From: Corynebacterium lowii
GTDB lineage: Bacteria; Actinomycetota; Actinomycetes; Mycobacteriales; Mycobacteriaceae
Assembly (NCBI RefSeq): GCF_001412085.1
Contig: NZ_LKEV01000004.1
Span: 62,001-126,000 of the forward strand
DNA: 64,000 nucleotides
Direction: 5' to 3'
Below the pieces are notes generated by a model. That model ran no database searches and was not told the origin of the DNA. It was given only the letters and a program-made list of their open reading frames with translations. Each line of letters begins with the position of its first letter. Position 1 is the stretch's first letter. Below, piece by piece: positions 6,084-21,553 of this stretch. The translations under genes were made by a program, and so were the position numbers.

Positions 6084-7271
6084 TTATTCCGCAGGCGCCC
6101 AATCAGCCCCCGGTGTGCGCTGGGGCCAGGCTTCCACCTGAATGTTGTGGGCCCCCGTGGCGCTCAGAGCGGCGGCGCTGTGCAGGGCATTATCCTCCGG
6201 CCCGGCAATGAGAATCTCATGATCCTGCCAATTGCCACGGCTGGCGGCGAGCGCGCCGGGAGATTCGGAAACTGCTATGTAGAGGTCCGGCAGTGTGGTT
6301 TGGGAATTGACCCACCAAGCGTCTTTATTCGTGGTGGCGCAGGGAACCACGGTGAACCACGAGCTCGCCTGCGCGAGCGCCCAGAGGCGGGGGAGTTCGT
6401 AGAGCTCACCGGGGTAATCGGCGCTGAGGAAGAGCGTGACATTGGGCTGGTTTTCCCAGGTGAGCATGTCAAAGAGGAGGGAACGCAGCGGGGCCCAACC
6501 GGTAGAGTGAGCGATGAGGAGAATATCGCGCTCGCCGCTGACCGCCAGGGAACCCTGTGGCTGGCCGAAAACCCAGTGGTCGCCCACCTTGGACTTGGCG
6601 AGGCGTTGGGCGGCGGTATCGTCCTCCCCGAGCACGTGGAACTCGATCTGCCCAAACTCCGTGGGGGGGGTGGCGAGGGACATTGGCAGCCAGATTCCCG
6701 GCAACATGCTCGATGAGGCCAGGACGTGCTGGCCGGGAGCGAAGGGGATGGGCAGGCCGGTATCGAGGGTGACCACGCTAATGCGGCGGCTCATGCGCTG
6801 TACGTCGATCACCTCGCCGGAATATGCGGGGGGAATACCCTGCTGATCAGCCTCTACCGCGGCGGCGGCCATCTCCACGCACACGCCTTCCATCAGGTGT
6901 TCCGCCTGTTGGGCTGCCACGGTGTATTGCTCATCGGCCACTCGCAGCACCTCGCGCAGCCCAAACTTGAGAGCCTGGGCAAAGGAGGCGTAGGCGATGG
7001 CGGGGAAGCCGTGGCGGCGGTGATCGAGTCCGATCTGCTGGACGCGCCACAGTACGTCGGGATCGAGGGCGTCGGGAGTGCTGCGCTCCAAAGCCCACGC
7101 TATTGCCGGGGCGAGATCCATATGGGACTGGCTCATCTTGAGCGGAAAAACAGACCGCGCCTCCAAGTGATCCACGTAGAATCGACCATGCGCGGCGTCA
7201 CGGAAAGTGTCGTGATGGTCGCGGATGAGACGCGCTATCTCGGTGAGGGTGGCGGCGGGCATGGCTTCCAT
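6084..7271 (-). CDS. Flavohaemoprotein-like globin/FAD/NAD(P)H reductase
   Basis: Two-part protein of about 395 residues. The N-terminal 130 residues look like a bacterial flavohaemoglobin globin: a B10-type Tyr in GRFYVDHLEARSVFP and a candidate proximal His in QIGLDHRRHGF. The rest resembles a ferredoxin-reductase module (GEVIDVQRMSRRISVVTLDTG, then FAPGQHVLAS). The FAD-binding R-x-Y-S motif reads WLPMSLA, the NAD loop reads STGWAPLRSL, and the C-terminal Cys-Gly-Pro reads IAGPED, so the flavin module diverges from Hmp. Function is probably NO or oxygen chemistry, but this is inferred. The start at 7271 (MEAMPAATLTEIARLIRDH) fits the globin N-terminus better than the longer frame to 7421; its ribosome-binding site is weak. 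Confidence 0.75.
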   Translation of the reverse strand: MEAMPAATLTEIARLIRDHHDTFRDAAHGRFYVDHLEARSVFPLKMSQSHMDLAPAIAWALERSTPDALDPDVLWRVQQIGLDHRRHGFPAIAYASFAQALKFGLREVLRVADEQYTVAAQQAEHLMEGVCVEMAAAAVEADQQGIPPAYSGEVIDVQRMSRRISVVTLDTGLPIPFAPGQHVLASSSMLPGIWLPMSLATPPTEFGQIEFHVLGEDDTAAQRLAKSKVGDHWVFGQPQGSLAVSGERDILLIAHSTGWAPLRSLLFDMLTWENQPNVTLFLSADYPGELYELPRLWALAQASSWFTVVPCATTNKDAWWVNSQTTLPDLYIAVSESPGALAASRGNWQDHEILIAGPEDNALHSAAALSATGAHNIQVEAWPQRTPGADWAPAE

Positions 7272-20399: not shown

Positions 20400-20636
20400 A
20401 TGACTCCCCTACTCATCACCCTCATCATCTCCCTCCCCCTCTGGCTCATCTTCGTGTTCTGGTATCAGCGCTACCGTCTCAATAAAAAGAAGAAGTACAA
20501 GGGCATGGGTGCAGATTGGCCGAATGAGTGGCTAGGCGGCAAGGGCACCCAGGAGATTCTGCGGGAGGATTCCACTTCTCAGGACTACGGCTCGCCCCTC
20601 CCACAACCGAGCAAAGGCGAAAGCAAAGAGAACTAA
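20400..20636 (+). CDS. Short single-pass membrane protein, unknown function
   Basis: A 78-residue protein with one N-terminal membrane segment (about 3-22, LLITLIISLPLWLIFVFWY) and a basic patch directly after it (RLNKKKKYKG), which predicts a cytoplasmic C-terminal tail. The tail is polar and rich in Gly/Ser. I do not recognise a family. The stop overlaps the last four bases of the convergent kinase-like gene. Initiation at ATG 20400 has no strong ribosome-binding site. Confidence 0.65.
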   Translation: MTPLLITLIISLPLWLIFVFWYQRYRLNKKKKYKGMGADWPNEWLGGKGTQEILREDSTSQDYGSPLPQPSKGESKEN

Positions 20637-21553
20637 GGCCGCACAATCTGCATATCGCGCAGGTGCCGGTAAAAGGTCACGCGCTTCACGGGCCGCTTGG
20701 CACTAATCCCGTCCACGGTCACGCGGATATTCTCGCCGCCGGATTGCACGGCCCGCCCGGTGGTCAGCGTTTCCGGTGCTACTACGGCCTCGGGCTGCGG
20801 GGCGCGGCGTACAAGCCAGCGGGTGCCGGGGGAGTTCCATAGTCGTTCTACTCCGCGCGGTCCTACGCGGCGAGCTACCGCCGCGCCCAGGCCGGAGCCT
20901 TCTTGGGTGGCGGAAAGCGGGGTGCGCAGTTCCACGGCGGCCAGGCCTGGGGCGGTGGTCATGGGCACCAGTCGCGCTCCATAGTGCCCAAAGAGGGGGC
21001 GATTTTCCTCCCCGTGGAGGAGCAGGCGGTGATCGTCCACGATGATCTCCCCGGTGTATTCCGTATTTTCCCAGTGGCTCAGTGTGGCGGAACCGGCTAC
21101 TACCAGGGCGGAATCGTTGCGAATGGTGGGGGTGGGCAGCGCCGGGGCTTCGGCGGCGAGGGCGAGGGCTTGGGCGGTGTCGTGAGGTAGCCCCCAGTTG
21201 GTCGCGGCGGTGGAGGTTCCCAGGGGCAAAAAGCCGAACTCTGCCCAGAGATAATCGGCGCGCATGGCGCGGGTGAGTACGGCGGAAAGGGCGGCGTCGG
21301 AACCGATCACCACGATGCGCAGGCGCTCGCTCAGGGCCTCAGCCTGTGGGGCGGGGCGGGGGGGGGGGGGGGGGGCGACGTCGGGTTGCGCGGCGATCTC
21401 GTCGAGCGTGGGGGTGGGATCGTGGGGGAGTGCTTGCTTAGCGGCGGCGTCGATAAGCTTTAATTCCTGGCGAGTGGGCACCTCGGAGAGTTGGTGAGCG
21501 CCCGCGCCGAGGGGCAGGCCGGTGGTGCCGCAGTGCAGGAAAAGGGTCCGCAT
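20633..21553 (-). CDS. Diacylglycerol kinase-like protein carrying a C18 tract
   Basis: A 306-residue protein with partial resemblance to the diacylglycerol kinase catalytic (DAGK_cat) fold: RIVVIGSDAALSAVLTRAM followed by FGFLPLGTSTAATNWGLP, parallel to the GGDGT and PLGTGN-type segments. The GGDGT core reads IGSDA, so kinase activity is doubtful. The Asp/Pro-rich linker before the domain contains 18 consecutive C residues on the coding strand (G run at 21358-21375), encoding five prolines in a row. A change of one or two bases there would truncate the protein. The start at 21553 is ATG. It is divergent from purA. Confidence 0.7.
   Translation of the reverse strand: MRTLFLHCGTTGLPLGAGAHQLSEVPTRQELKLIDAAAKQALPHDPTPTLDEIAAQPDVAPPPPPRPAPQAEALSERLRIVVIGSDAALSAVLTRAMRADYLWAEFGFLPLGTSTAATNWGLPHDTAQALALAAEAPALPTPTIRNDSALVVAGSATLSHWENTEYTGEIIVDDHRLLLHGEENRPLFGHYGARLVPMTTAPGLAAVELRTPLSATQEGSGLGAAVARRVGPRGVERLWNSPGTRWLVRRAPQPEAVVAPETLTTGRAVQSGGENIRVTVDGISAKRPVKRVTFYRHLRDMQIVRP
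21358..21375. repeat. 18-bp poly-G/poly-C homopolymer in coding sequence
   Basis: Uninterrupted run of 18 G on the plus strand, flanked by a short CG-rich tract (GCGGGGC at 21351-21357). It is by far the longest homopolymer I saw in the window. Such tracts mutate by slipped-strand mispairing and are a classic phase-variation substrate; they are also prone to sequencing error. Confidence 0.9.

Follow-up and report, generated by a model that had tools for sequence, protein, structure and literature searches.

The 7-base homopolymer of glpK in Mycobacterium tuberculosis is described as phase-variable in the available parts of two studies (PMC9346131, PMC11898584). In Propionibacterium (Cutibacterium) acnes, 54 variable tracts were reported, 96% of them of G/C, which mostly follow the clades, with eight that do not, and this pattern was read by the authors, in the portion of the text at hand, as slow accumulation and not as active modification (PMC4746626). 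A study available in excerpt reports that NucS of Mycobacterium smegmatis does not repair indels of one or two bases, and its authors connect this blindness to indels with mycobacterial phase variation (PMC11551767). Homopolymer frameshifts in Corynebacterium are already in print: frameshifts and sequencer errors at homopolymers are mentioned in a text whose accessible part does not use the term 'phase variation' (PMC5406005), and a frameshift in one C. silvaticum gene was located to a short homopolymer, where a minority of the reads differ (PMC7751848; the term is also absent from the accessible part of this text). Among the papers listed by a literature search, judged by titles and abstract openings and with most subscription papers outside its reach, none dealt with phase variation by homopolymers in Corynebacterium, and the genus is not named in the main text, as far as it was available, of a survey of homopolymers in 99 prokaryotic chromosomes (PMC2831843).

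As regards the repair setting, NucS was found and MutS was not found in the genome of Corynebacterium lowii (G000), and the control genome of C. glutamicum gave the same result, with NucS detected and MutS not. Taking the M. smegmatis enzyme as a guide to the escape of indels, this setting probably favours homopolymer instability.

The DNA analysed here, called the window, is a stretch of 64 kb from C. lowii, in which a first-pass annotation had pointed to 18 consecutive C near codon 60 of a diacylglycerol-kinase-like gene as a possible phase-variation switch. The features concerned are the following:

20633 to 21553, minus strand: gene for a 306-aa protein with a predicted YegS/DgkB lipid-kinase-like fold, near-universal in Corynebacterium and in frame at C18.

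21358 to 21375, minus strand: the C18 homopolymer (G18 on the plus strand), read off the window sequence.

21356 to 21376, minus strand: codons 60-66, A-P-P-P-P-P-R, where relatives in the alignment mostly have x-H-L-G-x-P-x in an equal number of codons.

The tract was found as described, with G18 on the plus strand at exactly 21358-21375 corresponding to C18 on the coding strand of an ORF with an ATG start, in which it makes up bases 179-196 of the CDS. The frame is open at C18; changes of one or two bases in either direction result in a product of 70-74 aa, from which the entire kinase-like core is lost, as had also been claimed, and changes of three bases preserve the frame. These frames also bear on a programmed slippage or frameshift site, by which mixed products would be made from a single DNA length. 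Long homopolymers can make polymerases slip, but here the complete conserved protein is read in frame 0, both other frames meet a stop a few residues past the tract and the run was present in no aligned relative, so that this explanation is very improbable.

To estimate how rare such a run is, a first-order chain built from the window's own composition (base-to-base frequencies) was used as the chance model. Runs of at least 18 were expected 0.00016 times in the window and 0.006 times in the genome of 2.35 Mb, and one was found, the second-longest C/G run of the window being of 8 (6663-6670). Over the whole genome, 122 runs of at least 9 were expected against 10 observed, C18 included. Therefore, long C/G runs are avoided in the C. 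lowii genome and C18 stands out among them. Provided that the assembly is correct, C18 is far outside chance, and a chance origin was ruled out by this expectation. The next longest runs of the genome, neither of them covered by an ORF of at least 100 aa, were a C13 directly after a MarR-like gene (G000:C7:86245-86257, L053) and a G12 upstream of a GntR-like regulator gene (G000:C4:181645-181656, L046), both genes being named by eye, without a family search.

The likeness to diacylglycerol kinases was sustained by the fold but not by sequence families. No Pfam family was detected for the 306-aa protein at E up to 10, the NCBIfam lipid kinase YegS gave a weak match of 19.4 bits, far below the cut-off of 284 for that curated family, and the family profile found no match among the sequences of solved structures. 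In contrast, the structure prediction, built on 40 rows and with a mean pLDDT of 94, showed a two-domain kinase fold that matched YegS (2jgr) with a VIA-align Z of 17.9 (rmsd 2.7 over 211 residues, 14% identity) and DgkB (2qv7) with a Z of 15.9; the top Foldseek match of the model was 2qvl (E 1.9e-9). Residues 55-68, where C18 falls, were modelled as a loop, with a pLDDT of 81-90 for the block.

YegS and DgkB lipid kinases carry a GGDGT nucleotide-binding motif. At this site the window protein has G-S-D-A-A (residues 84-88) and the eight rows shown have G-x-D-A-A, with G84 and D86 invariant and A87 and A88 nearly so over 40 rows. Because of this different motif, catalysis by the window protein is uncertain, and the protein family conserved near purA may correspond to a pseudo-kinase. 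A literature search on Rv0358, a tentative mycobacterial counterpart, gave nothing that helped.

The gene was present in 240 of the 242 Corynebacterium genomes, including all 235 near-complete ones, and no internal stop was seen among the matches listed for them, many of which cover the gene only in part. At the level of the order, a match was obtained in 34 of 81 genomes, its own genome counted. In the other 33, the best match started at profile positions 65-84 (26 genomes), 39-55 (6) or 135 (1), and since most of them start at 65-84, the segment bearing C18 is mostly unaligned outside the genus. The gene neighbourhood is stable: of the 33 named loci fetched, 32 include purA and 28 a FUSC-family gene. 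Against four relatives, dN/dS was 0.20-0.25 for the gene without the tract and 0.20-0.24 for the part downstream of the tract, similar to the 0.17-0.26 between relatives (four of the six possible pairs computed), pointing to purifying selection on the gene (dN/dS about 0.2). A decaying gene was ruled out by these values, also downstream of the tract; therefore, either the tract arose recently or the gene is on for most of the time.

Such a distribution is unlike that of a dispensable gene, and it goes against the first-pass argument that runs of this length are rarely tolerated in coding sequence unless they act as contingency loci. It also weighs, together with the stable neighbourhood, against an evolved contingency locus, in which slipped-strand mispairing at C18 would toggle the lipid-kinase-like gene, with each state favoured at times. 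This explanation draws on a tract length far beyond chance, on a position early in the gene, where any slip of one or two bases would produce a null, on the presence of NucS with MutS not found, and on the phase-variable glpK tract of M. tuberculosis, of only 7 bases, as given in the available text (PMC9346131, PMC11898584). With the evidence on both sides taken into account, it is somewhat unlikely.

The comparison of the tract with relatives, proposed in the first-pass annotation for related strains and carried out here with other species, did not favour a switch either. The alignment contained 62 other rows with 56 distinct sequences, which are the best-scoring relatives and not all 240; the rows exceed the distinct sequences as several genomes entered from two collections (e.g. 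L060 and L002). The C18 run was absent from all 62 rows. The stretch from PDV to APQ had an identical length in the 62 rows, with H at position 61 in 61 of them, L at position 62 in 51, G at position 63 in 50 and P at position 65 in all, whereas the window protein shows PPPPP over the same length where relatives carry the near-invariant H-L-G-x. As this motif is encoded by an equal number of codons in the relatives, C18 has taken the place of conserved sequence without a change of length. A free linker that simply varies was ruled out by the same length in 62 of 62 rows and by the near-invariance of HLGx, and the overwriting of a conserved motif is a further point against a contingency locus. 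However, the absence of the tract from relatives does not by itself exclude a switch, because the nearest aligned ones share 79-82% protein identity with the window protein and all of them are at or below about 82%, which leaves room for a young switch.

At the DNA level, seven changes within 11 bases and no indel separated the tract from the corresponding sequence of C. mastitidis (L061). Compared to relatives, 7-9 of the 18 positions of the tract differed, against a divergence of 15-21% in the flanks (P 0.005-0.023), an excess that is modest as a count, and every difference was a change to C. From this alignment, point mutation alone looks an unlikely route to C18, and there are two real candidate routes: slippage that cost the gene its motif, or a mistake in the sequencing or the assembly. 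The nearest named relatives of the window's genome were Corynebacterium sp. zg-331, C. oculi and C. mastitidis; a relative-rate comparison was uninformative because the four nearest relatives group together, with the window sequence as their outgroup.

Under the second route, the true sequence would hold ordinary HLGx-like codons, or a real C run of another length would have been miscounted. The length equal to that of relatives, with substitutions only, is what would be seen if bases had been miscalled in place, the plus strand is G-rich at this point (GGGGCGGGGC followed by G18), and the genome is a draft of 11 contigs, in which a long homopolymer may be wrong in length; spurious indels in tracts of over 14 bases have been reported in a paper available in part (PMC8808543). 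When other genomes of the genus were searched, runs of at least 14 C/G were detected in 16 of 151, and no run of at least 12 was found in the three that were searched of the four nearest relatives. The long runs of the drafts G119, G129 and G124, often near contig ends, were set aside as likely assembly junk in our judgement, and such apparent junk in the genus also speaks for an error. On the other hand, C18 lies far inside a contig of 217 kb, its flanks look unique and the frame is open. The assembly holds only three runs of at least 12, without clustered runs as in G119 and G129, and the genomes G050, G066, G098 and G138, each assembled into one or two contigs, also contain runs of 14 to 17. 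Furthermore, dark-cycle G artefacts would not normally be expected to recover into correct sequence after 18 bases. An error is thus unlikely as the source of C18.

Another coding poly-C was detected in the genus, in a Type ISP restriction-modification gene (Pfam Type_ISP_C and ISP_coupler), where a C run occupies one place in six related species:

L126 to L131 (genomes G050, G022, G202, G211, G060 and G025), around locus base 1801: Type ISP poly-C gene.

The run lengths in the five readable species were 14, 10, 11, 9 and 10, and both C10 copies were open, whereas the C9, C11 and C14 copies were interrupted; the sixth copy has one C11 on each side of an N gap and is unreadable for frame. Six more distant copies had ordinary codons at this place and no C run, L132 and L135 being cut by the end of the stretch. 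Interruption alone is no proof of a role of the tract in this gene, because L136, one of the copies without a run, was also interrupted near the site. The comparison covers 12 loci, fetched from the 89 of 242 genomes in which the Type ISP query gave a match; no match was obtained in the genome of C. lowii. Thus, the genus does have a coding poly-C with a length-dependent frame, a point in favour of a contingency locus at C18, although the Type ISP gene, unlike the gene studied here, is of patchy presence, and its tract varies in length between near relatives. On these sequences, the Type ISP gene looks like a better contingency candidate than C18 and constitutes a candidate phase-variable restriction system in Corynebacterium.

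Three other runs were observed in this survey. In L120 (G138:C1:2824232), the frame of an ATP-grasp-like gene seems to change at a 12-base C/G run (locus 1502-1513), and in L098 (G050:C1:379953), a G12 (locus 1501-1512) lies a short distance before the point where a SpaA-type pilin gene likely starts, as a possible expression tract. A G9 in an Abi-like ORF (L035, named by eye) was rejected, the frames nearby showing no clear break at the tract.

Considering all of the above, we hold with about even confidence that C18 is a genuine, recent and hypermutable poly-C run, which stays in frame because the conserved gene is under selection. Strand slippage would have started from a small deletion or substitution joining neighbouring C blocks, followed by an expansion that would overwrite about 11 bases encoding HLGx, in the loop just before the kinase-like core. 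Selection for the conserved gene would then keep in-frame lengths only, while single-base slips would arise often and give null variants, reverting by slipping back, so that on/off variation would be a by-product of an unrepaired homopolymer and not a selected switch. Such a passive origin is in agreement with a run that is private among the aligned relatives, in frame and of ancestral length, in a gene under purifying selection and a genome with NucS and without detectable MutS, and it has a precedent in the Type ISP gene, with its C tract where relatives have ordinary codons. The slow accumulation that was read from the P. acnes tracts points the same way (PMC4746626).

Some observations do not fit a passive origin so well. 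The destroyed motif is otherwise nearly invariant, which is odd for a passively tolerated change, and an exactly ancestral length would also be expected from a sequence error of the substitution type. In addition, so long a run is expected to slip often, and a strictly needed gene should select against it; therefore, on that point a switch or an error fits better. It is nevertheless doubtful that a single Corynebacterium lineage acquired C18 as a true, reversible switch, by which a core and not an accessory gene would be phase-variable through a tract that overwrites its own motif. Of the switch first proposed, the parts that stood are the tract in the assembly, its length beyond chance and the truncating slips, the presence of NucS without detectable MutS adds to them, and what told against it are the conservation of the gene and the private nature of the tract. 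Overall, a recent, slippage-prone mutation or an error of sequencing describes C18 better than a proven on/off switch does. Should the run be real, a core gene is expected to mutate at a very high rate, in a genus with seemingly few descriptions of phase variation, and a confirmed C18 would offer a simple test of how organisms of the NucS type live with long homopolymers.

Compared to the known systems, the encoded protein resembles the YegS and DgkB lipid kinases in its fold, but shares only 14% identity, belongs to no Pfam family and has G-S-D-A-A instead of GGDGT. With glpK of M. tuberculosis, as presented in the parts available of its two sources, the locus has in common a C/G homopolymer inside the coding sequence of a kinase or kinase-like gene, whose reversible inactivation by slips is predicted for C18, and an actinobacterial host that has NucS but no detectable MutS; it differs in that glpK variation comes from clinical isolates and with a phenotype, whereas C18 is far longer and known from the sequence of one genome. 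The tracts of P. acnes are also long G/C runs in a high-GC actinobacterium, in that case of the skin, and some are intragenic and produce frameshifts, but the text at hand describes for them a comparison of 90 genomes, with Sanger checks in six (PMC4746626), whereas C18 is known from one assembly. The Type ISP poly-C belongs to the same genus and likewise stands as a long C run in place of ordinary codons inside coding sequence. However, it is common to six related species, with different lengths and some copies interrupted, in a gene of patchy distribution in the genus, whereas C18 is private among the genomes compared, in frame and located in a near-universal gene.
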